DNA from: an uncultured Gemmiger sp.
GTDB taxonomy: Bacteria; Bacillota; Clostridia; Oscillospirales; Ruminococcaceae
Length of the DNA: 64,000 bases
Assembly (NCBI GenBank): GCA_944388145.1
Contig: CALXHQ010000008.1
Location: 46,184-110,183 of the forward strand
Direction of reading: 5' to 3'
Part shown: piece by piece, positions 36,735 to 54,873 of the stretch
How positions within the stretch are numbered: the stretch's first letter is position 1
Layout: each line of letters begins with the position of its first letter
Program-made: the position numbers and the translations under genes
The notes under the pieces: generated by a model
The model's database searches: none
What the model was told of the DNA's origin: nothing
What the model saw: the letters and a program-made list of their open reading frames with translations, nothing else

Positions 36735-36865
36735 CCGCAGGGGCGGCGGCATGGCCGGTCCGCCCACCGGAGAAGCAGGGTGAAAGTCCCACACAGTCCC
36801 GCTACTGTTACAGTCAGAGCGCCGGGCGGCCCGAAGGTACATCTCCACGAGCGATGGAGAAGGGT
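36735..36865 (+). ncRNA. Cobalamin riboswitch
   Basis: The core elements occur in order: GGTGAAAGTCCC, CACAGTCCCGCTACTGT, and a B12-box-like AGTCAGAGCGCCGGGC. This is the conserved cobalamin aptamer. It lies 40 bases after a promoter and ahead of a candidate B12 uptake pair. When cobalamin binds, expression should fall; the hairpin at 36917-36953 is the likely termination stem. Confidence 0.88.
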
Positions 36866-40962: not shown

Positions 40963-42465
40963 ATGTCACTGTTTCAAATCAGCCGCCTGACGTTTGCCTG
41001 GCCAGGCAGCTACGACAATGTTTTTACCAACCTGAACCTGCGGCTGGACACCGGCTGGAAACTGGGCCTGACCGGCCGCAACGGCCGCGGCAAGACCACC
41101 CTGCTGCGCCTGATCTGCGGGGAGGAGGATTATGACGGCCGCATCGAACTGCAGGAGCATCCCTGCCGCTTCCCGGCGCCGGTGGCTGACCCGGGCCGGC
41201 CGGTGGCCCGGGTGGTGCGTGCCCTGGCGGGGGAGGAGGCGGCTGACTGGCAGATTGAGCGGGAACTTGATCTGCTGGGGCTGGGGGAGGCGGCCCTTGG
41301 CCGGCCTTTTGCCAGCCTGTCCCCCGGCGAACAGACCCGTGCCCTGCTGGCGGCGCTGTTTTTGCAGCCGGAGGGGTATCCGCTGCTGGATGAACCCACC
41401 AACCACCTGGATGCCGCCGGACGCGCGTTGCTGGGGCGGTATCTGCGGGGGCAGCGGCGGGGCTTTTTGCTGGTGTCCCACGACCGGATGCTGCTGAACG
41501 AGTGCGCGGACCATATCCTTTCGCTGGAAAAAACCGGTCCGCTGCTGATCCAGGGCGGCTACGACGACTGGCAGCGGGAGACCGACCGCCGCGACGCCCG
41601 GGAGCTGGCCGAAAACCAGCGGCTTACCCGGGAGATCGGCCGGCTGGAGGAGGGGATCCGCCGCACCGGCGCCTGGGCGGCCCAGGTGGAAAAAAGCAAG
41701 TTTGGCACCCGCAACTCCGGGCTGCGGGCGGACCGGGGCTATGTGGGGCATCAGGCGGCCCGGATGATGAAGCGGGCCAAGGTCATCCAGGCGCGGCAGC
41801 AGAAGGCACTGGCTGAAAAATCCACCTTGCTGCAGGACCTGGAGACCGCCGAACCCCTGAAACTCCATCCGCTGCCTGCGCCCGACGGCTGCCTGGTGCG
41901 CTGCCGGGACCTGACCGTCTGCTATGGGGACCGGCCGGTCTTTTCCGGGCTGACAATGGAACTGCGCAGCGGTGAGCGGCTGGCGCTGCGCGGCAGGAAC
42001 GGGTGCGGCAAGACCAGCCTGCTCCGGTTGATCTGCGGGCAGCCGGTGCCCCACACCGGCCTGTGTGAGACGGCGTCCGGGCTGGTGATTTCCAGCCTGC
42101 CCCAGATGGCGGAAGCCTTTGCCGGCACCCCCGCCGACTACGCGGAGGAATTCCGGCTGGACCGGCCGCTTTTCTTTGCCATCCTGCGCAAGCTGGGGTT
42201 TGCACGGGTCCAACTGGAAAAGCCGGTTTGCGCGCTGAGCGCCGGGCAGCAGAAAAAGCTGCTGTTGGCCCGCAGCCTGTGCCAGCCGGCCCAGCTGTAT
42301 GTGTGGGACGAACCGCTGAACTATATGGATGTGCTTTCCCGCCGGCAGATCGAGGAGCTGATCCTGGCCTGCCGCCCCACCCTGCTGTTTGTGGAACATG
42401 ACCGCGCCTTCTGCACACGGGTTGCCACCCGCACCCTGGTGCTGGACGGGGCGCCGGAAACCTGA
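40963..42465 (+). CDS. ABC-F ribosomal protection protein (Lsa-like)
   Basis: 500 residues, two ABC domains and no membrane helices. Walker A motifs are GRNGRGKTT (about 38) and GRNGCGKTS (about 347); signatures are LSPGEQTRALLAAL and LSAGQQKKLLLARSL; an interdomain linker rich in charged residues spans about 200-300. The N-terminus resembles Lsa/Vga-type proteins that displace lincosamides, streptogramin A and pleuromutilins from the ribosome. AAGGAGG precedes ATG 40963. The leader peptide and attenuator support drug-inducible control. Spectrum not readable from sequence. Confidence 0.88.
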   Translation: MSLFQISRLTFAWPGSYDNVFTNLNLRLDTGWKLGLTGRNGRGKTTLLRLICGEEDYDGRIELQEHPCRFPAPVADPGRPVARVVRALAGEEAADWQIERELDLLGLGEAALGRPFASLSPGEQTRALLAALFLQPEGYPLLDEPTNHLDAAGRALLGRYLRGQRRGFLLVSHDRMLLNECADHILSLEKTGPLLIQGGYDDWQRETDRRDARELAENQRLTREIGRLEEGIRRTGAWAAQVEKSKFGTRNSGLRADRGYVGHQAARMMKRAKVIQARQQKALAEKSTLLQDLETAEPLKLHPLPAPDGCLVRCRDLTVCYGDRPVFSGLTMELRSGERLALRGRNGCGKTSLLRLICGQPVPHTGLCETASGLVISSLPQMAEAFAGTPADYAEEFRLDRPLFFAILRKLGFARVQLEKPVCALSAGQQKKLLLARSLCQPAQLYVWDEPLNYMDVLSRRQIEELILACRPTLLFVEHDRAFCTRVATRTLVLDGAPET

Positions 42466-43919: not shown

Positions 43920-44711
43920 ATGGAATATCAACAGAAAACCCGCCCCGGCGCCCGGCCCGCTCCCGCCCCCGCCGATACGCTGGTGTGGGGCAAAAATCCG
44001 GTGACGGAGCTGCTCCGGTCCGGCCGCCCGGTGGATACGGTCTATCTGGCTGACAGCCTGCCGGAGGCTGCCGCCGGCTATTACACGGCGCTGGCCCGGC
44101 AGGCCGGGGCCGTGGTCAAAAAGGTGCCCGCCCACAAACTGCAAAAGCTGTGCGGCGGGGCCGAGCATCAGGGTGTGGCCGCCCGCGGCGCCGAGATTGA
44201 GTACGCCAGCCTGGACGACCTGTTGGCCGTTGCCCGGGAAAAGGGGGAACCGCCCTTTTTGGTCTTGTGCGACGGCATTGAGGACCCCCACAATCTGGGG
44301 GCCATCCTGCGGTCGGCACTGCTGTGCGGGGCCCACGGCGTGGTGATCCCCCGCCGCGGCGGGGTGGGCGTTACCGGCACGGTGATGAAAGCCAGCGCCG
44401 GTGCAGCGGCCCGCATCCCGGTGGCGAGGGTGGCCAACCTGGCCCAGGCCATCCGGGACCTGAAAGCGCAGAACGTCTTTGTCTACTGCGCCGACATGGG
44501 CGGTGCCCCGCTGGACAAGACCGACCTTTCCGGCGCGGTGGCGCTGGTGATGGGCAGCGAGGGCAAAGGCCCCGGCGCCCTGGTGAAAAAGCTGTGCGAC
44601 GGTGTGGTCAGCCTGGAGATGGCTGCCCGGGGCACCGGCGTGGACAGCTACAACGTCTCGGTGGCGGCAGGCATCTTGATGTACGATATTATGCGCCGCC
44701 GAGCCCGGTAA
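43920..44711 (+). CDS. rlmB: 23S rRNA (guanosine-2'-O)-methyltransferase RlmB
   Basis: 263 residues. The N-terminal substrate-binding domain (about 20-100; VWGKNPVTELLRSG) precedes a SPOUT knot with NLGAILRSALLCGAHGVV, LVMGSEGKGP and SYNVSVAAGILMYDI. It methylates a guanosine of 23S rRNA (or tRNA Gm18 in relatives) using S-adenosylmethionine. GGAGGAAAAG precedes ATG 43920; a longer in-frame start at 43521 runs through the DnaA-box cluster and is not credible. Confidence 0.92.
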   Translation: MEYQQKTRPGARPAPAPADTLVWGKNPVTELLRSGRPVDTVYLADSLPEAAAGYYTALARQAGAVVKKVPAHKLQKLCGGAEHQGVAARGAEIEYASLDDLLAVAREKGEPPFLVLCDGIEDPHNLGAILRSALLCGAHGVVIPRRGGVGVTGTVMKASAGAAARIPVARVANLAQAIRDLKAQNVFVYCADMGGAPLDKTDLSGAVALVMGSEGKGPGALVKKLCDGVVSLEMAARGTGVDSYNVSVAAGILMYDIMRRRAR

Positions 44712-44837
44712 AACCGACCGTTCCGGCCCTGCGCCGCCGAGCGGCGGCCGGGTGCCTTTTGCAGGATCTGCCGGGCAAAAGCAGACACACCGGATACACC
44801 ATTGCATTCCATGCACAAAAGGGGAGAAATAACGACC

Positions 44838-47800
44838 ATGCCAAGCAAGCGTACAAACGATTCGGTGGAGAAAATTCTCCAGGATCTGAATCGGGAACAG
44901 GAGGCAAAGGGCATCCGCGACCGGATCACCGACACCAATGTGGATGAGATCCTGCGCAGTATCCCCCGCAGCACAGCGCCGGTGGATGACATCACCGCGA
45001 CACTTGGCCCCATTGAGGACGCAGACATGCCCAAGGTGGAGGTCAGCGGCGATCTGGAGGACCCGGAGGCCCGCTTCTCGACCCAGGCCATCAACGAGCT
45101 GCTGGCCGATTTGCCCATCTTTCAAAATCAGGAGGCTGCCAAGGCAGCCCGCATGACGCCCGCCGCCGGCAAGGCCGCCGCTCCGGCCCGCCCGGCTGCC
45201 CCCCGGCAGGAACCTGCCCCCCGCCCGGCCCGGTCCACGGCCCCCAAGCCGGAACCGCAGCCCGCCCCGGTGCAGCCTGACGAACCCGCAGCCGAGGCTG
45301 CCCAGCACGACGCCGGGCAGACCGACGCCGGACAATCCGCCCGCCAGGGCCGCACCGGCACGGTGGACACCACCCGCACCGGGATCATCAAAAATTTCCT
45401 GCGCCAGATGGGCAGCGACAACACCGACAATACCACCCAGCTGTCCCAGCGGAAAAATCAGTTTCAGCGCTTTTTTGAGGAGAGCATCGCAGTGGTGCCG
45501 GGCAAAAACGGCAAGCTGCCCCACGAGAAAAAGCGCAGGAAGGGCCTGTTTGGCCGCAGCGGCGATACCGGCGAGCTGACAGAGGAGTTTGTGCCCATCA
45601 ACGTCTCGCTGCGGGGACGCCGGGCCGAGGAGCCCGCGCCCCAGCCGGAGGAGGAACCCGCGGCTGCGGCTGCCGAGCCCGCTGATACCGCCCCGGACGA
45701 CACCCCGGCGGAGGAACCCCGCGCCCGAAAACGGGGCCTGTTCGCCGGGCTGTTCGCCCGCCGCACGGAGGAGGATACCGGCACCCTGTACGAGGAGGAA
45801 GAGCCCGCCCCCGCCGCCCCGGAAAAAGAGCCCGCCCCGCCGGCGGAGGAGGCGGCCCCCGCGCCGGAACCTGCCCCGGAACCCGCCCCGGAAAAGTATG
45901 TCTACCGGTCTAAGTATGCAGGGTCCCGGCGGGTGCACAGCAACTCCATGACGGATACCTTCTCCTCGCTGGGGCTGTTCCACACCGGGGAGCCGGATCA
46001 CCGCGCATCTCACCTGCAGGAGGAAGAACCCCGCCCGCAGGCGGAGCGCCGGGCCGATCCCGCCCCCACGGAGGAATCCCCGACCCCGCCCCGCAAAAAG
46101 CGGGACACGGTGGAGTTTACCCCCGGGCACACCAGCCACCAGCTGCCTCAGCAGCCCCCGGAGCAGGAAGCCCCTGCCAATGAGCCGGTGGGCGAGCCGG
46201 TGATGACCAGCTCGGACACGCTGACCACCGGCTTTACCATCAAGATGGACCGGGTGGAGGAGCAGGAGGACACCCACGATTTTGTGGCGTCGCTGGGGGC
46301 AAAGGCCCCACGGCAGCAGCCCCGGCCCGCGGCCCCTGCGCCCCGGGAGGAACCCTCCGCCCCGGCGGACGCCCGGGAGGACACCGACCCCACCGGCCAG
46401 GTGCGCCTGGGCCTGAAACCACAGCCGGCTGAATCCACCGGCGATTTCGCGTTGGATTTCCTGGACAATCAGCCGGAGCAGCGCCCGGATACTGCCCAGT
46501 TTGTCAAGGGCATTGCCCAGACGCTGAACAACATCCCGGAGCAGGAGCCGGACACCGGCCGCTATGCCGAGGCTGCCCGCCGTCTGACCGGCCAGGAGCC
46601 GGAGGAGGGCGGGGAACCGGACCCCGGCCACCATGGGCGTACCCGCCTGGCCGGCACCCCCGAGGACGAGCGGGAGCCGGAGCCGGAGGGGCCTTTTACC
46701 GAGGAACACGGCCACCGCAAACTGGACTATGAGACTGCCGAGGACGCCCCCCGCGTCCGGCAGGAGCTGGACCGCCAGGTGCTGATGCGCATGGTGAACG
46801 CGGTGGTGTCCGCCGTGGGGGCGTTGGTGCTGCTGTATCTGGGCATCGGCGCGGACGGCGGCCTGCTGCCGCTGCCCGCCATGCTGGCCCCTGCGGCTGC
46901 CACCGGCGAAACCGCCGCGGCACTGGCGGCAGCCGGCGCCACGGCCGCCCCGCTGCTGGGCGTGATGCTGGTGCTGATGCTGGCGGTCTGCGCCGTCAAC
47001 TGGCAGACCATGCTGTTCGGCCTGGCCGGCCTGGCCCGAACCCCCACCGCCGACTCGATGGCTGCGCTGGCCGGGGTGGGCGGCGTTGTGCAGCTGGCCG
47101 CCTTCCTGGTTCAGCCGGGGTGGTACCGTGCCGGGGCGCTGTGCCTGCTGGCGGGCCCGGCGGCGCTGGTGCTGTGCGGCAATGCCGTTGGCAAACTGAT
47201 GGATGCCCGCACCACCCGCGCCAACTTTGAGCTGGTCAGCGCCGGGGTGGACCACGCCGTGGCCTACCGCCTGCGGGATGCCGGCGTGGTGCGCACGGTC
47301 ACCCGCGGCCTGGGCGAACCCAAGCCCAGCCTGCTGGTCAGCCGCCCCACCGTACTGCTCAAGCATTTCCTGGCCGGCAGCGCCGCCCGCCGCACCTCAG
47401 ACAAAAACCAGCAGCAGTTCAGCTGGGTGTTGGGTGCCTGCGGTTTGATCAGTTTTCTGTTCACGCTGCTCTACCGGCGGGATGCCGGCATGGCCTTCAC
47501 CGCGCTGGCGGCCGTGCTCTGCCTGGGCGCGCCGCTGGCCGGTACCCTGATTTCGGCCCTGCCTGCCCAAAAGATGCAGCGCAGCGCCGCCCGTGTGGGC
47601 GCCGTCATCCCCGGCTGGAAGGACATCCGCCAGCTGGGCCGCATCAATGTGATCCAGATCACCGCCCGGGACCTGTTCCCCGCCGGCTGCGTCACGCTGG
47701 CCGGTATCCGTCCGGTGGGCAAGGAGCGCATCGACCAGGCCATCATCTACGCCGCCTCCATTCTGGCCGAGGGCAGCCCCACGCTGCGGGATGTGTTTTT

Positions 47801-48491
47801 GGGTATGATCGGCGACAACCGCAAGCTGCTCTCCCAGGTGGATGACCTGAAGTCGGTGTACGGCAAGGGATATCTGGGCTGGATCGGCGGCAACCGGGTG
47901 CTGGTGGGCAACCGCGCCCTGATGCAGGACTACGGCATCAAGATCCCCAGCCTGGAATTTGAGCAGCGCCACTCGGTCAACCAGCGGCGGGTCGTCTATC
48001 TGGCGGCCTCCGGCAACCTGATGGCCATGTTCCTGGTGGGCTATCAGCGCGACCCCGATACCGCCGCCGTGCTGGAGGGCCTGCGCCAGGCGGGCATGTC
48101 GATGATTGTGGACTGCGACGACTTCAACTGTGATGTTCACCTGATCGAGGCGGTCTACGGCCTGCCGTCCGGCTCGGTCAAGGTGCTTAGTGCCGAGGAA
48201 CGCCAGGCCCTGGCGCCCGCCACCGCCTGGCTGCCGGAAAGCGAGGGCAATATGCTGCATTTGGGCAGCTTTGCCAGCTTTGTGGGCGGCCTGGAGGCCG
48301 CCGCCGGCGCCGCCGAGGGCGAATACCGCGCCGGTATGGTGCTGACGGCTTCGGTGCTGTTCAGCTGCGTGCTGGCGGTGATCTTGTCGCTGGCGGGGGG
48401 CATTGCCACCCTGTCGCCGCTGGGCATTGTGCTGTACCAGATCGCCTGGGCGGCGCTGGCCCTGATCTTCCCCATGACAAGGCGTTACTGA
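44838..48491 (+). CDS. Degenerate P-type ATPase-like membrane protein with long disordered N-terminus
   Basis: 1217 residues. Residues 1-640 are rich in Pro, Glu and Ala with repeated short basic motifs, so probably disordered and cytoplasmic. From about 650 come membrane helices and a segment laid out like a P1B-type ATPase: CLGAPLAGTL where CPCALG would be, then ARDLFPAGCVTL (Asp about 945) in place of DKTGTLT, GKGYLGWIGGNRVLVGNRALM (about 1010-1030) matching the nucleotide-domain GKG...VGN..LM motif, and DCDDFN (about 1092) in place of TGDN. The phosphorylation and hinge motifs are lost, so it should not transport by ATP hydrolysis. A structural or sensing role is possible. Confidence 0.7.
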   Translation: MPSKRTNDSVEKILQDLNREQEAKGIRDRITDTNVDEILRSIPRSTAPVDDITATLGPIEDADMPKVEVSGDLEDPEARFSTQAINELLADLPIFQNQEAAKAARMTPAAGKAAAPARPAAPRQEPAPRPARSTAPKPEPQPAPVQPDEPAAEAAQHDAGQTDAGQSARQGRTGTVDTTRTGIIKNFLRQMGSDNTDNTTQLSQRKNQFQRFFEESIAVVPGKNGKLPHEKKRRKGLFGRSGDTGELTEEFVPINVSLRGRRAEEPAPQPEEEPAAAAAEPADTAPDDTPAEEPRARKRGLFAGLFARRTEEDTGTLYEEEEPAPAAPEKEPAPPAEEAAPAPEPAPEPAPEKYVYRSKYAGSRRVHSNSMTDTFSSLGLFHTGEPDHRASHLQEEEPRPQAERRADPAPTEESPTPPRKKRDTVEFTPGHTSHQLPQQPPEQEAPANEPVGEPVMTSSDTLTTGFTIKMDRVEEQEDTHDFVASLGAKAPRQQPRPAAPAPREEPSAPADAREDTDPTGQVRLGLKPQPAESTGDFALDFLDNQPEQRPDTAQFVKGIAQTLNNIPEQEPDTGRYAEAARRLTGQEPEEGGEPDPGHHGRTRLAGTPEDEREPEPEGPFTEEHGHRKLDYETAEDAPRVRQELDRQVLMRMVNAVVSAVGALVLLYLGIGADGGLLPLPAMLAPAAATGETAAALAAAGATAAPLLGVMLVLMLAVCAVNWQTMLFGLAGLARTPTADSMAALAGVGGVVQLAAFLVQPGWYRAGALCLLAGPAALVLCGNAVGKLMDARTTRANFELVSAGVDHAVAYRLRDAGVVRTVTRGLGEPKPSLLVSRPTVLLKHFLAGSAARRTSDKNQQQFSWVLGACGLISFLFTLLYRRDAGMAFTALAAVLCLGAPLAGTLISALPAQKMQRSAARVGAVIPGWKDIRQLGRINVIQITARDLFPAGCVTLAGIRPVGKERIDQAIIYAASILAEGSPTLRDVFLGMIGDNRKLLSQVDDLKSVYGKGYLGWIGGNRVLVGNRALMQDYGIKIPSLEFEQRHSVNQRRVVYLAASGNLMAMFLVGYQRDPDTAAVLEGLRQAGMSMIVDCDDFNCDVHLIEAVYGLPSGSVKVLSAEERQALAPATAWLPESEGNMLHLGSFASFVGGLEAAAGAAEGEYRAGMVLTASVLFSCVLAVILSLAGGIATLSPLGIVLYQIAWAALALIFPMTRRY

Positions 48492-48584
48492 GGGAACGCC
48501 TGGCCCGTCAGGGTGCCGGAACCCCGGCCCAATGCGGGGCTGGCACACCCGGAACGAAATTTTCTGCGAAAGGGGCAACGTTGG

Positions 48585-48989
48585 ATGTACCGCTCACAGG
48601 ACAGCCAGCTGAGTTTTTACGACTTTCTGCCGCCTTACCACGGTGAGCTGGCCGCTGACAACCGCTGGGTCCGCCTGGCGGCTGCCATTGACTGGAAAAG
48701 TTTTGAACAGCAGTACAGCGCGCTGTTTGCCCGGGGCGGCAAGATCGCCATCCCTGCGCGGGTGGCGCTGGGCAGCCTGATTGTGCGGGAGGTGTACGGC
48801 GCCACCGACCGGCAGACTGTGGAGCTGATCCGGGAAAGCCCCTATCTGCAATATTTTATCGGGCTGAAAACCTTTGGGGATGCGCTGCCCTTCTCCTACC
48901 GGAGCATGGAGCGTTTCCGCACCCGCATCCCTAAAAAGCTGGTGCAGCAGGCGGTGCGCAAGATGCGCGAGCTGGAATGGGAAAAATAA
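48585..48989 (+). pseudogene. Truncated IS5/IS1182-type transposase
   Basis: 134 residues with the start, ribosome site (AAGGGG) and whole N-terminal DUF772 domain: QLSFYDFLPPYHGELAADN and SPYLQYFIGLKTF are its hallmarks. The catalytic DDE domain of about 300 residues is missing and the frame ends cleanly after ELEWEK. It is either a remnant or a short DNA-binding protein left from the element; no inverted repeats are evident around it. Confidence 0.75.
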
Positions 48990-49093
48990 CCCCCCGTTCC
49001 CCGGGAAATTGCCTGCGCCGCCGCCCCTCTCCTGCCCGGCATCCCGGGCAGTACCGCATTTCTGATTGCTGATTTTTTTTCAAGAAGGTGTAT

Positions 49094-49960
49094 ATGGAAA
49101 TTTTACTTCATTCGGTGGTACACGCGCTGGAGGACAGCGTGCGGATGCTGCCGTTTCTCTACCTTGCTTACTTGCTGATTGAATGGCTGGAACGCCATCA
49201 CGGCCAAAAGATTGAGGACGCGCTGGCCGGCGGCGGACGCTGGGGCTTTGTGCCCGGCGCGCTGCTGGGCTGTGTGCCCCAGTGCGGGTTTTCCGCCGTG
49301 GCGGCAAACCTGTATGCCAGCCGGGTCATCACACCCGGCACGGTGCTGGCGGTCTTTTTGGCCACCTCTGACGAGGCGGTGCCGCTTCTGGCCGCCGAGC
49401 CGGAATCCTGGACCGCCCTGCTGCTGGTGCTGGTGCTGAAGGTGGTCATCGCCATCCTGGCGGGCTTTGTGCTGGATGTGCCGCTGCGGCGGTTTTTGCC
49501 GGCATCGCTTTACGGCGGTTACGCCGGCCATGCCGACGATGTGGACTGCCATGAGCAGCACGAGGAATCCAGTGGCATCTGGCTGTCGGCCCTGCGCCAC
49601 ACGCTGGAGATCTTTGCCTTTATCCTGGTGTTCAGCTTCGCCATCACGCTGGTGTTTGAGCTGCTGGGCGAACAGACGGTGGCTGGCCTGTTTGCGGGGC
49701 TGGGCGTCTTTCAGCCCATGGTGGCGGCGCTGTTCGGGCTGGTGCCCAACTGTGTGTCCAGCGTGCTGCTGACCCAGCTGTACCTGCAGGGCGTCATCAG
49801 CTTCGGCAGCCTGTTTGGTGGCCTGTGCGCCGGCGCGGGCGTGGGGCTGGCGGTGCTGTGGCGGGTCAACCCCAGCCTCAAGCAGAACCTGTTTTTGACC
49901 GGTCTGCTCTGGGCGGTGGGCGCGGCCTGCGGTATTCTGCTGCAATTTCTGCCGATGTAA
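49094..49960 (+). CDS. Ten-TM heavy-metal exporter of the ArsP_2 type
   Basis: 288 residues, about ten helices in two repeats. LLGCVPQCGFSAVAANLY and FGLVPNCVSSVLLTQLY are the paired Cys motifs of the two halves, and a His/Glu-rich loop (HADDVDCHEQHEE, about 154-166) could bind metal. Annotated relatives are called arsenic efflux or manganese transporters. AGAAGG lies five bases before ATG 49094. The cobalt chelatase gene follows, so cobalt or another divalent metal is also possible. Confidence 0.82.
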   Translation: MEILLHSVVHALEDSVRMLPFLYLAYLLIEWLERHHGQKIEDALAGGGRWGFVPGALLGCVPQCGFSAVAANLYASRVITPGTVLAVFLATSDEAVPLLAAEPESWTALLLVLVLKVVIAILAGFVLDVPLRRFLPASLYGGYAGHADDVDCHEQHEESSGIWLSALRHTLEIFAFILVFSFAITLVFELLGEQTVAGLFAGLGVFQPMVAALFGLVPNCVSSVLLTQLYLQGVISFGSLFGGLCAGAGVGLAVLWRVNPSLKQNLFLTGLLWAVGAACGILLQFLPM

Positions 49961-50113: not shown

Positions 50114-50869
50114 GTGGAAAGGGCACTGTTGATCGTCAGTTACGGCACCGCCGCGGCCCCGGCCCGGGCAGAGCAAACCGCGCTGGAGGACCGCCTGGCC
50201 GGGGCTGTCCCCGGCTGTGCGGTCTGGCGGGCCGTATCCAGCCCGGCGGTGCGGCGGATGCTGGCGGCACAGGGCCTGGACACACCCTCCCCGGCTGGGG
50301 CGATGGAGCGCATGCTGGCGGAGGGCGTGACCGACCTGGCCCTGCTGCCCACCCATCTGGTGCCCGGCGGGGATTTTGCAGCGGTGCAGTCGGCGGCGGA
50401 GTGCCGCCGCGGCCGCTTTGCCCGGCTGCGGGTCGGTGAGCCGCTGCTGGCCGACCGGGATGCGGCGGCCCAGCTGGCCGGGCTGGCGGCGGGCTGGCGG
50501 CCCGCCCGCGGCGCCCTGGTGCTGGTCGGCCATGGGGCGGACGGCCCTGCCGCCCGCTGCTGCTATGCCGCCCTGGCAAAGGCCCTGCCGCCGGGCATTT
50601 TTGTGGGGGTGCTGCGGGGGGAACCGGGCTTTGCCGCCGTCCTGACCGCTTTACGGGCGGGACGGTACCGGCAGGTCATGCTACAGCCGCTGCTGCTCAC
50701 GGCGGGCACCCATGCCCGGCGGGAGCTGGCCGGGCCGGCGCCGGACAGCTGGGTCAACCGCCTGCGGGCCGCCGGGTTCGGCACGGTCTGCCGGATGCAG
50801 GGCCTTGCCGCCGACACCGGCGTGCAGCAGCTGTACCTGCACAGGCTGAAACAGCTGCTGGTACCATGA
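50114..50869 (+). CDS. cbiK: Anaerobic cobalt chelatase CbiK
   Basis: 251 residues, GTG start behind GAAGGGGG. It inserts cobalt into sirohydrochlorin in the oxygen-independent cobalamin pathway. LLIVSYGTAA, the catalytic His in LVGHGADGPAARCCYAAL, and PLLLTAGTHARRELAGP are in the expected order. It heads a three-gene cobalamin operon. Confidence 0.88.
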   Translation: MERALLIVSYGTAAAPARAEQTALEDRLAGAVPGCAVWRAVSSPAVRRMLAAQGLDTPSPAGAMERMLAEGVTDLALLPTHLVPGGDFAAVQSAAECRRGRFARLRVGEPLLADRDAAAQLAGLAAGWRPARGALVLVGHGADGPAARCCYAALAKALPPGIFVGVLRGEPGFAAVLTALRAGRYRQVMLQPLLLTAGTHARRELAGPAPDSWVNRLRAAGFGTVCRMQGLAADTGVQQLYLHRLKQLLVP

Positions 50870-50895
50870 CAGGAAAAACGAGGGGGCAGAGCAAA

Positions 50896-51498
50896 ATGCT
50901 GATCTATCTGATCCGTCACGGAGAGACGGACTACAACACCCAAAAGCGATACCAGGGCCAGCGGGACATCCCGCTCTCGGCCAAAGGGCGGGCGGAGCTG
51001 CACCGGGCGGATTTCACCCCGGCGCTGGTTTACGTCTCACCGCTGATCCGCGCCCGGCAGACGGCGGAGATCCTGTTCCCCGGTGTGGAGCAGATCCCGG
51101 TGGAGGGCCTGCGGGAGATGAACTTTGGCAGCTACGAGGGCCGCACCTACGTCCACATGGAAAACGACCCCGATTATCTTGCCTGGGTGGAGGCCAACGC
51201 CCACGCCGCCCACCCGGACGGGGAGCGCAAGGCGGATTTCTGCGCCCGCAGCTGCGCTGCCTTTGCCCGGGTGATGGAGGACGCGGCCCGCCGCGGGCTG
51301 GACCGGCTGGTGATTGTGGCCCATGGCGGCACCCAGATGGCGGTGATGGAGCATTACGCCCTGCCTCACCGCCCCTTTGAACAGTGGCACACCGGCAACG
51401 GCGGCGGCCACAAGCTGGAGGACAGCCTCTGGCAGACGCAGCGCAAGCTGAACTGGCTGTGTACCGTCAACTACGGCGCCGGGGGAACCGGGCAATGA
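50896..51498 (+). CDS. Histidine phosphatase, probable alpha-ribazole phosphatase
   Basis: 200 residues. The phosphohistidine motif is LIRHGETDYN and the second His is in IVAHGGTQMAV, the phosphoglycerate-mutase-like fold. Position between cbiK and the adenosyltransferase points to a CobC role, removing phosphate in nucleotide-loop assembly. ATG 50896 follows AGGGGG; an ATG at 50866 overlapping the cbiK stop would add ten residues. Other substrates remain possible. Confidence 0.82.
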   Translation: MLIYLIRHGETDYNTQKRYQGQRDIPLSAKGRAELHRADFTPALVYVSPLIRARQTAEILFPGVEQIPVEGLREMNFGSYEGRTYVHMENDPDYLAWVEANAHAAHPDGERKADFCARSCAAFARVMEDAARRGLDRLVIVAHGGTQMAVMEHYALPHRPFEQWHTGNGGGHKLEDSLWQTQRKLNWLCTVNYGAGGTGQ

Positions 51499-52004
51499 GC
51501 GGGCTGGTACATCTCTACTGCGGGGACGGCAAGGGCAAGACCACCGCGGCCATGGGGCTGGCGCTGCGGGCACTGGGCGCCGGGCTGCGGGTGACCATCG
51601 TGCAGTTTTTGAAGGACGGCCAAAGCGCTGAGCTTGCCCCGCTGCGCGCCCTGGGGGCGGCGGTGTATGCCGGCGAACCGGGCATGAAGTTTGTGTTCCA
51701 GATGACGGAGGCGGAGAAGGCCGCCGCCCGCGCGGAACAGAACGCCCTGCTGCGGGCGGCCCTGGCCGAACCCTGCGACCTGCTGGTGCTGGACGAGGCC
51801 TGCGCGGCGGCGGCGCTGGGCATGGTGGAGGAACCGCTGTTGAAAACCGCGGTGCTGGACCGCCCCGCGGGGCGGGAGGTCTGCCTGACCGGCCGGGACC
51901 CTGCCCCCTGGCTGACAGCCGCCGCCGACTATATCACCGAGATGCAATGTGTCCGCCACCCCTATGACAGAGGCGTGCCCGCTCGCCGGGGCATTGAATT
52001 TTGA
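51495..52004 (+). CDS. cobA: Cob(I)alamin adenosyltransferase, CobA/CobO type
   Basis: 169 residues, starting ATGA-overlapped with the upstream stop. HLYCGDGKGKTTAAMGLALRA is the P-loop and VIQFLKDGQ-like TIVQFLKDGQ plus LLVLDEACAAA are the family motifs. It adds the adenosyl group to corrinoids using ATP. This completes a partial cobalamin set: chelation, loop phosphatase and adenosylation. Confidence 0.92.
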   Translation: MSGLVHLYCGDGKGKTTAAMGLALRALGAGLRVTIVQFLKDGQSAELAPLRALGAAVYAGEPGMKFVFQMTEAEKAAARAEQNALLRAALAEPCDLLVLDEACAAAALGMVEEPLLKTAVLDRPAGREVCLTGRDPAPWLTAAADYITEMQCVRHPYDRGVPARRGIEF

Positions 52005-52042: not shown

Positions 52043-52076
52043 AGGCCGCAGGCCCCGTACAGGGGGCCTGCGGCCT
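52043..52076. terminator. Bidirectional terminator between cobA and the TetM-like gene
   Basis: A 14-bp stem (52043-52056 with 52063-52076); on the minus strand it is followed by GATTGTTTTAT, on the plus strand by a weak TTCC. Confidence 0.7.
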
Positions 52077-52117: not shown

Positions 52118-54727
52118 TCAGGGCCCGGTCAAAAATTCCCGGATCTCGGCGTCCACCGCCTTGACCTCCTCGTGAAAGGCCCGGGCGGACACCCGCAGCG
52201 CGCCGTTGCCCAGGATGATCAGCTGCTCGGCGCCGTCGGAGGTGACCACCCGGGTGCGGTACTGCCGGGCAATCTCGTGGGTGGCCTTCTCGATATACAT
52301 ATCGGCGGTCTCGGCCTCCTTGGTGTAGACCACATACAGGTTGTGGTACTGCTCCACCTCCCGTGCGCCGCCCTTGACCTTGTAGGCGTCGAACACCAAG
52401 ATCGGCACGCAGCGCCGGTACCCGGCGTAGTTGCACAGAATGTCCATCAGCCTGCGGCGGGCGGCGTCCAGGTTGTCGGCAGCGATCGCCTTCAGCTCCT
52501 CCCAGGCAAAAATCACATTGTACCCGTCCACCAGCAGATGCTCCGGCCCATCCGGCAGGGGGGCGGCCGGGGTGCGGGGCGCGGCCGGCTCCGCCGGGCG
52601 CTTTTTCACCGGGCGCATCGCCTTCAGGGGATCCCGGCGGATGGGGCCGTAGGTGCGCTCAAAGATGGCCATCAGCTCCTTGTCCTCGGCCAGGGTGCCC
52701 CGGTAGGCCGCCGCGCGGGCGGCCCGGCTGCCGGGGGCGGCGGCCTCGGGCTCCCCGGCGCTGCGGGCCATCCGCTCGTCCCGGGCCAGCACGCTGGGCA
52801 GGTGGGCGTGGCTGGGCACCTGGTCCCAGGGCACCAGGTATCCGGCGCCGTGGCTGCAAAAGACTGAGTCGGCGGTATTGTCGGTGTCGGCGTCAATGTC
52901 ATAGGCCGCGGCGGCCACCACCTCGTCGGTGTTGTGGCAGGGGGCGTAGCCGGCGGGCAGGCAGGCAAGCTGCCCCCGGCCCCGGGTGTAGGCGGCCACC
53001 TCCCGGGCATAGCCCCGCAGGCAGGCCACCGGCGCTTTGCCGGTCAGCACCGCGTCCTCCCCCTCGGTCAGGGGCGGGTCAAACTCGGCGTTCAGGCGGG
53101 GCATATCGGCCAGCGCCCGGCCAACTGCCTCCTGCGGCAGCCGCAGCGTGAACTGGTACCAGGGCTCCAGCAGAACACAGCCGCCCGCTGCCCGGGCGGT
53201 GCGCAGGCCCTGCCGTACCGCCCGGTAGGTGGCCTGGCGGAAATCCCCGCCCTCGGTGTGCTTGGGGTGGGCGCGGCCGGCGGCCAGCGTGATCTTCACA
53301 TCAGTCAGGGGCGCGCCGGTCAGCGGGCCGATGTGGGTCTTTTCGGCCAGATGGGTCAGGATCAGCCGCTGCCAGTTGGCGGCCAGGTCATCCTCCCGGC
53401 AGGCGGTATCCAGCGTGATGCCGCTGCCCCGGGGGCCGGGCTCCAGCAGCAGATGCACCTCGGCATAGTGGCGCAGCGGCTCGTAGTGGCCGATGCCCTC
53501 CACCCGGGTGCTGATCGTCTCCTTGTACAAAATGCCGCCCTCGTCAAAGGTGACTTTCAGCCCGTAGCGGCGGTCCAGCAGGCTCTGCAAAATTTCCAGC
53601 TGAACCTCCCCCATCAGCTGCAAATGCACCTCGCCCAGGCGCTCGTCCCACACCACATGCAAAAGCGGGTCCTCCTGTTCCAGCTCCCGCAGCTGGCGCA
53701 GGGCAGTGTGCACATCGCAGCCCTCAGGCAGCAGCACCCGGTAGCGCAGCACCGGTTCCAGCGCGGGGGCGGCGGCGTCCGGCTCAAAGCCCAGCCCCTC
53801 GCCGGGGTAGGTGTCCGCCAGGCCGGTGACGGCGCAGACAGTGCCGGGCAGCGCGCTGCCGATCAGCTGGAATTTTGCCCCCGAGTACAGCCGCAGCTGG
53901 TCGGCCTTGCCCTGCCAGCTTTTTCTGGCGTCGGGGCGGGCGGTCAGCTCGGCCTTGACCTTCAGTTCGCCGCCGGTGACCTTCAGCCAGGTCAGGCGGG
54001 CGCCGGTGTCGTCCCGGGTTACCTTGAAGATGCGGGCGCCGAACTCCTGCCGCGCCGGCAACGGCAGCGTCAGCCGGTCCAGCGCGTCCAGCAGGGCGTC
54101 CACGCCATCCAGCTTGAGCGCCGCGCCGAAAAACACCGGGAACATCTGCCGCCGGGCGATGGCGGCTGCCAGCTGGGCGTCGGTGGGCGTTTTGCCGGCG
54201 GTGACGGTTTCCAGAAGTTCCTCATTGCAAAGGGCCAGGTCATCCATGCCGGCCGGGTCGCTCAGATCCACGCAGCCGGACCCAAACCGGCGGCGCAGCT
54301 CGCCCAGGCGCAGCGCCCGGTCGGCGCCGGCCAGGTCCATCTTGTTCACAAAGACAAACACCGGCACCCGGTAGCGCTCCAGCAGCCGCCAGAGCGTCTC
54401 GGTGTGGCTCTGGATGCCGTCGGTGCCGCTGACCACCAGGATGGCGTAGTCCAGCACCTGCAAAGCCCGCTCCGCCTCGGCGGAAAAATCCACGTGGCCG
54501 GGGGTGTCCAGCAGGGTCAGCTCAGCCCCGGGCAGCTTGAGCAGCGCCTGCTTGGAAAAAATGGTGATGCCCCGGGCGCGTTCCAGCGCGTCGGTATCCA
54601 GAAAGGCGTCCCGGTGGTCCACCCGCCCCAGTTTGCGCAGCACCCCCGCGCGGTAAAGCATCGCCTCGCTCAAGGTGGTTTTGCCCGAGTCCACATGGGC
54701 CAATATGCCAATGACCAGCCGTTTCAT
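52118..54727 (-). CDS. TetM-like ribosomal GTPase fused to a Rae1/YacP-type NYN nuclease domain
   Basis: 869 residues. Residues 1 to about 640 match the full length of Tet(M)-type ribosomal protection proteins: AHVDSGKTT, DTPGHVDF and NKMD G-motifs, then EF-G-like domains II-V. A charged Pro/Ala-rich linker (about 640-728) leads to a complete YacP/NYN domain (about 730-869) with LLVDGYNVIFAW (D734), VFDAYKVKG (D780), TKEAETADMYIEK and VVTSDGAEQ (D831), the acidic residues of the nuclease site. In B. subtilis the stand-alone homologue Rae1 cuts mRNA in the ribosomal A site. The fusion suggests a factor that enters the A site and cuts mRNA, perhaps during drug stalling. GGAAGGA precedes ATG 54727. 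Confidence 0.9.
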   Translation of the reverse strand: MKRLVIGILAHVDSGKTTLSEAMLYRAGVLRKLGRVDHRDAFLDTDALERARGITIFSKQALLKLPGAELTLLDTPGHVDFSAEAERALQVLDYAILVVSGTDGIQSHTETLWRLLERYRVPVFVFVNKMDLAGADRALRLGELRRRFGSGCVDLSDPAGMDDLALCNEELLETVTAGKTPTDAQLAAAIARRQMFPVFFGAALKLDGVDALLDALDRLTLPLPARQEFGARIFKVTRDDTGARLTWLKVTGGELKVKAELTARPDARKSWQGKADQLRLYSGAKFQLIGSALPGTVCAVTGLADTYPGEGLGFEPDAAAPALEPVLRYRVLLPEGCDVHTALRQLRELEQEDPLLHVVWDERLGEVHLQLMGEVQLEILQSLLDRRYGLKVTFDEGGILYKETISTRVEGIGHYEPLRHYAEVHLLLEPGPRGSGITLDTACREDDLAANWQRLILTHLAEKTHIGPLTGAPLTDVKITLAAGRAHPKHTEGGDFRQATYRAVRQGLRTARAAGGCVLLEPWYQFTLRLPQEAVGRALADMPRLNAEFDPPLTEGEDAVLTGKAPVACLRGYAREVAAYTRGRGQLACLPAGYAPCHNTDEVVAAAAYDIDADTDNTADSVFCSHGAGYLVPWDQVPSHAHLPSVLARDERMARSAGEPEAAAPGSRAARAAAYRGTLAEDKELMAIFERTYGPIRRDPLKAMRPVKKRPAEPAAPRTPAAPLPDGPEHLLVDGYNVIFAWEELKAIAADNLDAARRRLMDILCNYAGYRRCVPILVFDAYKVKGGAREVEQYHNLYVVYTKEAETADMYIEKATHEIARQYRTRVVTSDGAEQLIILGNGALRVSARAFHEEVKAVDAEIREFLTGP

Positions 54728-54768: not shown

Positions 54769-54797
54769 ATTATACCGCAGGGCGACAGCCTTGTACA
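54769..54797 (-). promoter_or_regulatory. Promoter of the GTPase-nuclease gene
   Basis: Minus strand: TGTACA (54797-54792), a 17-base spacer, then TATAAT (54774-54769). The leader is only about 35 bases, so no long attenuator precedes the gene. Confidence 0.55.
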
Positions 54798-54831: not shown

Positions 54832-54873
54832 CCGCCCCGCAAAGGCGTCAAACTGCCTTTGCGGGGCGGTTTT
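54832..54873. terminator. Terminator after the YoaK-type gene
   Basis: CCGCCCCGCAAAGGC (54832-54846) pairs with its complement (54855-54869); AAA flanks one side and TTTT the other. Confidence 0.8.

Follow-up and report, generated by a model that had tools for sequence, protein, structure and literature searches.

A Rae1/YacP nuclease domain fused to an EF-G/Tet-family GTPase in Gemmiger and other Clostridia: a candidate tethered A-site mRNA nuclease

The window analyzed here, a 64,000-nucleotide stretch of an uncultured Gemmiger sp. genome (GCA_944388145.1, contig CALXHQ010000008.1), encodes a protein of 869 residues in which an EF-G/Tet-family GTPase is followed by a complete Rae1/YacP NYN nuclease domain. 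Our reading is that of a captured, GTPase-tethered Rae1, which would cut mRNA where the ribosomal A site is vacant, and not of a tetracycline-resistance protein; we give this reading an even chance of being right. Across the genomes sampled, the fused and free forms of Rae1 nearly always exclude each other. The architecture itself is not new and was noted in print in 2015, when Tet proteins with a YacP-like NYN domain were described in ten clostridial species as a possible resistance mechanism (Atkinson 2015; passages of PMC4342817). Among the papers listed by text searches and judged by title, no other was about the fusion. What is new here is the exclusivity, the apparent single main origin, the contrast between loci, the invariant residues in 118 fused proteins, the lysine at the drug-site proline of TetM and the failure to reach the Tet family cut-offs.

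Architecture and occurrence of the fusion

The fusion gene (52118..54727, minus strand; delimited by its open reading frame, Pfam and the genomes of relatives) runs as a single frame from an ATG at 54727 to a stop codon ending at 52118. The GTPase (G) domain comprises residues 1-219 (54071..54727, minus strand; Pfam and an alignment of 118 fused proteins), with GTP_EFTU matching residues 4-219 (8e-48). It is followed in EF-G-type order by EF-G_D2 (residues 229-305, 18 bits, under the cut-off of 27), EFG_III (343-394), EFG_IV (399-511) and EFG_C (518-599). The nuclease domain comprises residues 731-864 (52136..52537, minus strand). It belongs to the Rae1/YacP family by its match to NYN_YacP (PF05991; 7.8e-46, 156.5 bits against a cut-off of 24.6), in agreement with the alignment and with a sequence match across 133 residues to the solved B. 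subtilis YacP/Rae1 (5mq8 and 5mq9; 2.3e-23). In the predicted structure, residues 1-613 adopt an EF-G-like fold according to Foldseek and VIA-align; the matches in both lists are EF-G-type and other GTPase chains, and the NYN assignment rests on sequence, not on structure. The closest named matches to the protein are from Gemmiger, with 86-89% identity. The first-pass annotation had described one 869-residue frame joining an EF-G/TetM-like GTPase to a complete NYN domain, which the open reading frame and Pfam bear out, and the acidic residues it placed at D734, D780 and D831 stand at those positions in the translation.

The join is not an artefact of sequencing. A full-length open fusion without stops is present in 35 of 61 relatives, 29 of the 35 within the genus and 6 of the 26 outside it. 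Intact frames in 29 of 35 genus genomes exclude a chance or sequencing join, so that a frameshift connecting two genes, the danger that the first-pass annotation saw for its own reading, can be set aside. In two further genus members the fusion is fragmentary: in G017 it lies at a contig start, and in G023 it is spread over two contigs. Its occurrence is thereby brought to 31 of 35 genus genomes. Altogether, 37 of the 61 relatives carry exactly one NYN_YacP, always as part of the fusion (35 full-length, 2 fragmented), and in the source genome (98.82% complete) the copy in the fusion is the only one found. Broken fusion frames were seen in four class genomes: L191 and L192 have an in-frame stop within the GTPase part, and the GTPase and NYN parts of L196 and L197 lie in different frames.

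The near exclusivity of the fused and free forms is evident in two larger samples. In the class sample (293 genomes, 192 positive), the 149 genomes listed comprise 82 with the fused form only, 59 with the free form only (including G265), one with both and 7 that are unclear; in the phylum sample (299 genomes, 163 positive), the corresponding counts among the 149 listed are 18, 128, 0 and 3. The samples share some genomes and the counts are not independent owing to shared ancestry, hence no probability is attached to them; positives below the Pfam cut-off number 1 of 192 and 2 of 163. Fused and free forms were called by frame length, and a homology check on 60 loci agreed at 58, the other two being cut by a contig start. 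Among the unclear class genomes, G228 and G241 carry a fusion truncated at a contig end, a stop interrupts the fused-type gene of G121 and G246, G291 and G103 are in two frames, and G212 is undecided. The unclear phylum genomes (G535, G387 and G588) have an NYN frame without a GTPase match. Second NYN hits in G177, G230 and G264 were dropped as doubles, being 21-bit partial matches under the cut-off. As to how widespread and how described the fusion is, which the first-pass annotation had raised as a question, it is widespread in the relatives and the class sample, and its appearance in print is that in the passages of PMC4342817 cited above.

The two forms also occupy different loci. RlmB lies directly upstream of free Rae1 at 46 of 52 distinct loci, and RlmB or a SigH-like gene stands beside it at 51 of 52, the exception being G265. 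The same search found neither gene beside the fusion at any of 80 fused loci, 67 of which have at least 1 kb on both sides. The fusion is therefore outside the classical rlmB-rae1-sigH locus, which is a habit of location and not a catalytic criterion. In the window, rlmB (43920..44711, plus strand; profile match) lies about 7.4 kb from the fusion and is followed by a frame of 1229 residues (44802..48491, plus strand; no Pfam match at 1e-5) and not by rae1, whereas most free loci have rae1 right after rlmB; thus, the classical site here lacks the nuclease.

The locus of the free form bears on one alternative, a role in ribosome assembly or in rRNA or tRNA processing, in which the GTPase would dock on subunits and the NYN domain would trim rRNA or tRNA. 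Free rae1 adjoins rlmB, an rRNA methyltransferase gene; the B. subtilis region, as far as the source passages describe it, also holds mini-III, which matures 23S rRNA; and NYN domains have been proposed for rRNA and tRNA maturation (quoted in passages of PMC4342817). However, published descriptions of B. subtilis Rae1 have it acting as an endonuclease on mRNA in the A site (passages of PMC6613710, PMC12320835 and PMC8266666), and the fusion keeps most of the residues conserved in free Rae1. We consider a processing role very improbable.

Conserved residues, tether and origin

The 118 non-identical fused proteins of the alignment have a median identity to the window protein of 58%, the lowest being 44%. 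In the GTPase, D13, K16, T17, T55, D74, G77, H78, N128 and K129 are invariant (118/118), and H11 and D131 are kept in 116 and 117 proteins, respectively. In the nuclease, D734, N737, D780, D809, E813, D831 and Q835 are invariant in all 118. Judged by this conservation, both enzyme parts are under constraint; the conserved acids D734, D780, D809, E813 and D831 presumably include the catalytic ones. We also compared 53 free with 122 fused NYN domains, excluding doubtful or split rows: 22 of the 25 positions conserved to at least 90% in free Rae1 are conserved to at least 90% in the fused domains as well.

Between the two enzyme parts lie two further elements. First, the GTPase module carries a C-terminal extension (residues 597-642; 52802..52939, minus strand; alignment), in which C597 and W634 are kept in 118/118 proteins, C624 in 114/118 and H626 in 105/118; G627 is near-invariant, and H598 is less well kept (91/118). 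The extension is also present in unfused relatives of the GTPase clade and was not seen in the TetM/W-type protein L176. It lies beyond domain V and may be a small element that binds a metal or contacts the ribosome. Second, a variable tether (residues 659-727; 52547..52753, minus strand; alignment and predicted structure) leads to the nuclease. It contains a helix at residues 667-693 and a segment, residues 702-720, with a predicted local distance difference test score (pLDDT) below 50, and the spacing from C624 to D734 ranges from 90 to 127 residues across the 118 proteins. Within the tether, residues 682-694 form a motif with the consensus DKEL..IFERTYG (52646..52684, minus strand; alignment), whose T692 is kept in 115/118; the unfused proteins examined stop short of this motif.

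The history of the two parts was followed in trees that are quick, with long branches, open forks and chosen rows. The NYN tree contains 95 domains (41 of the 123 fused rows and 54 of the 58 free ones; the doubtful L128, L129, L193, L196, L197 and L200 were excluded where present). Two label changes suffice to explain it. A single starred branch sets off 53 of the 54 free forms; the remaining one, from G265, is nested among the fused domains with starred support. In the GTPase tree of 60 modules, a starred clade separate from the TetM/W-type proteins holds all 44 fused rows. The trees thus point to one main origin of the fusion. One unfused Ligilactobacillus plasmid copy sits inside the fused GTPase clade; it appears to have lost its NYN domain, which indicates that the nuclease can be lost. 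Since the unfused relatives outside the fused clade (G522, G545, G623, G265 and G056) share the C-terminal extension, the GTPase probably predates the gain of Rae1. The idea that the fusion had simply come apart in the genome G265 was rejected: its NYN domain nests with the fused forms, and its GTPase groups with the unfused relatives in the 60-module tree, having been placed next to the fused clade in a smaller one. Its NYN domain was thus freed from a fusion, and its GTPase probably belongs to another lineage, unless a long branch misleads.

These relatives bear on a second alternative, in which the two activities are joined for convenience, cleavage needs neither GTP nor docking of domain IV, and the GTPase performs an EF-G-like or back-up step. 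G265 has the GTPase and the NYN domain as separate genes, and the phylum genomes G522, G545 and G623 each have an unfused GTPase of the clade plus a free Rae1. In addition, the free Rae1 of B. subtilis works without a GTPase partner according to the source passages, the lack of a fused partner following from its length. On the other hand, only one unfused member falls in the clade that unites the 44 fused rows of the sampled tree, and the conserved motif of the tether suggests a specific arrangement. We regard a join for convenience as rather unlikely.

Relation to Tet proteins and surroundings of the gene

The protein is homologous to Tet proteins, and no NCBIfam model scores higher against it than NF012153, the general Tet family. 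However, the window protein scores 375.6 against the cut-off of 775 for this family and 243.7 against 1100 for Tet(M/W/O/S) (NF033148), whereas the TetM/W-type control L176 passes both (820.1 and 1284.5, respectively). The EF-G cut-off is likewise missed (TIGR00484; 246.5 of 659.4). A further difference lies in loop III of domain IV (residues 484-497, GRAHPKHTEGGDFR; 53237..53278, minus strand; alignment), a loop that passages of PMC4750697 describe as the key element. TetM acts in the A site and its P509 lies in the drug site (passages of PMC8161019). The position aligned to this TetM/W drug-site proline is K489 in the window protein and a lysine in 116 of the 118 fused proteins, where it lies in a conserved H-x-KHTEGGDFR tip; the loop III of Tet proteins is thus not preserved. 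The name 'TetM-like' in the first-pass annotation therefore holds as a label of homology only.

Upstream of the gene, a sigma-70-like promoter, TGTACA-17-TATAAT (54769..54797, minus strand), matches the consensus at 10 of 12 positions, on which match alone it is assigned, and AGGAAGGA is located 9 nucleotides ahead of the ATG. Terminator-like hairpins recognized by sequence inspection follow the upstream DUF1275 gene (54832..54869, minus strand) and the fusion gene (52043..52076, minus strand). These features, consensus matches and not proof, are consistent with a monocistronic gene. The distance from the -10 hexamer to the ATG is about 41 nucleotides, too short to hold a TetM-type attenuator. 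The gene therefore looks as the first-pass annotation had it, monocistronic with its own promoter and no attenuator.

These comparisons bear on a third alternative, namely drug resistance or response. Following a suggestion of Atkinson 2015 (passages of PMC4342817), the protein would remove tetracycline-like drugs from the ribosome, and its RNase action would be a new means of resistance. The score to NF012153 speaks for it, as does the name TetM/TetW/TetO/TetS that a fused plasmid copy bears in public records. Against it stand both missed Tet cut-offs, the lysine in place of P509 and the short leader. Moreover, the fusion behaves as a core gene of the genus (31 of 35 genomes, two with fragments), and of the 1231 plasmid records that match at all, just 2 extend over 80% of the protein. 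We consider this alternative improbable; the missed cut-offs and K489 make the drug-response role the weaker branch of the earlier inference. An acquired resistance gene was rejected as the main explanation on account of the cut-offs, K489, the near-core status in the genus and the rarity on plasmids.

The naming of clade members in public records is a separate matter. Both L250 (a fused copy on an Agathobacter rectalis plasmid) and L249 (an unfused copy on a Ligilactobacillus salivarius plasmid) are annotated as TetM/TetW/TetO/TetS resistance proteins. Of the five unfused copies on Ligilactobacillus plasmids among the matches listed, four bear a Tet-resistance name. For these clade members the name is likely a misnomer and, if so, resistance genes in gut metagenomes could be overcounted.

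The genes around the fusion recur so little that they give no functional clue: the commonest neighbor family, ABC-transporter ATPase-like as judged by eye, occurs at 11 of 80 named-genome loci, and the next two at 6 each. In the window, a vitamin B12 gene run (cbiK, a cobC-like gene and cobA; 50114-52004, plus strand) lies just before the fusion gene and is convergent with it, and an AdoCbl-II riboswitch is found at 36752-36832 (plus strand). Other features on the plus strand are an ABC-F ATPase near the Lsa type (40963-42465), which passes the general ribosomal-protection-like ABC-F cut-off (392.9 against 380) and misses the Lsa cut-off (561.1 against 750), a predicted 10TM arsenic/heavy-metal exporter (NF037962, ArsP_2; 49088-49960), and an N-terminal piece of an IS5-family transposase (48513-48989; a frame of 158 residues covering model positions 5-121 of 419), which is probably a remnant.

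Proposed mechanism and comparison with known systems

From its architecture and conservation, the fused protein may work as follows. An EF-G/Tet-family GTPase of its own clade would have gained Rae1 at its C-terminus, and almost every genome that carries the fusion lacks free rae1. As TetM and EF-G do, the GTPase module would bind paused ribosomes with a vacant A site, where domain IV would probe the decoding site with its own conserved His/Lys tip. GTP hydrolysis would then withdraw domain IV, the tethered NYN domain would reach the exposed A-site codon and cut the mRNA, and the cut would pass the ribosome to decay and rescue pathways. The length of the tether and its partly disordered prediction would let both parts take turns at one site. 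In this way the fusion would fill the role of B. subtilis Rae1 and bring its own means of docking on the ribosome. The parts of this proposal differ in strength. The nuclease probably cuts mRNA on ribosomes; that the GTPase gates the nuclease is a tentative suggestion and somewhat doubtful. Equally tentative is the fullest version, in which free Rae1 has given way, in much of Clostridia, to an A-site mRNA nuclease gated by GTP. The first-pass annotation had likewise inferred a union of A-site entry, GTP use and mRNA cleavage in one ribosome rescue, stress or drug-response factor. The fusion, its conserved active sites, its monocistronic look and the Rae1-like NYN domain are in keeping with this, the near exclusivity with free Rae1 strengthens it, and the drug-response part has lost ground.

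Several observations weigh against a captured, GTPase-tethered Rae1. Tet-type domain IV and Rae1 would need the same A site, so they must act in turn or the NYN domain must reach the mRNA from elsewhere; this competition makes the order of events a guess. The predicted structure (predicted template modeling score 0.72) does not fix how the two modules sit relative to each other, and the stretch adjoining D831 and Q835 (residues 833-837) has a pLDDT below 50. The nuclease has also diverged in places: column 850 is Glu in 53/53 free Rae1, Glu in just 40% of fused domains and Ala in the window protein, and R845 and T829 are likewise relaxed in the fused domains. No NYN_YacP at all was found in 24 of the 61 relatives, four of them genus members, where it is either dispensable or missing from the assemblies. 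Finally, G340 is a true double, having a classical rae1 as well as the fusion, in G056 an unfused GTPase of this clade occurs without NYN_YacP, and in G265 a GTPase of this group and the free NYN are separate genes (L217 and L213) on different contigs; neither the linkage nor the GTPase/NYN pair is therefore obligatory.

If the proposal is correct, one GTPase-nuclease serves many gut Clostridia for cutting mRNA on stalled ribosomes, and bacteria would offer an example of a translation factor with an mRNA-cutting domain of its own. Genomes with the fused form, the free form, both, or separate genes provide a comparative set for asking whether Rae1 needs help in entering the A site. Condon 2018, on the distribution of Rae1, may already mention fusions. 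No functional test of the fusion, and no data on its cleavage, GTPase activity or ribosome binding, were found in the literature searched, which did not include two key Rae1 papers, Leroy 2017 and Condon 2018. The new comparative evidence makes the function of this published fusion testable.

Lastly, we compared the fusion with four known systems. It shares an EF-G-like GTPase with Tet(M/W/O/S) and differs from these proteins in scoring below both cut-offs, in its loop III and C-terminal extension, and in the added nuclease domain. The unfused relatives (G522, G545, G623, G265, G056 and the Ligilactobacillus plasmid copies) match roughly residues 1-645 with about 40-50% identity and have a similar cysteine-containing C-terminal extension, but lack the NYN domain. 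With B. subtilis Rae1/YacP, for which S1025 is a known target (PMC11780869), the fusion shares the NYN domain, the presumed catalytic residues and 22 of 25 conserved positions. The B. subtilis protein, however, is a free enzyme (a chain of 181 residues in 5mq8), usually encoded at the rlmB-rae1-sigH locus, whereas the form in the window is tethered to a GTPase and lies elsewhere in the genome. The NYN-fused clostridial Tet proteins have an architecture identical to that of the window protein, which belongs to the same class; the passages of PMC4342817 that describe them mention neither the exclusivity with free Rae1 nor the loop III change of the fused proteins, both of which the present comparison adds.

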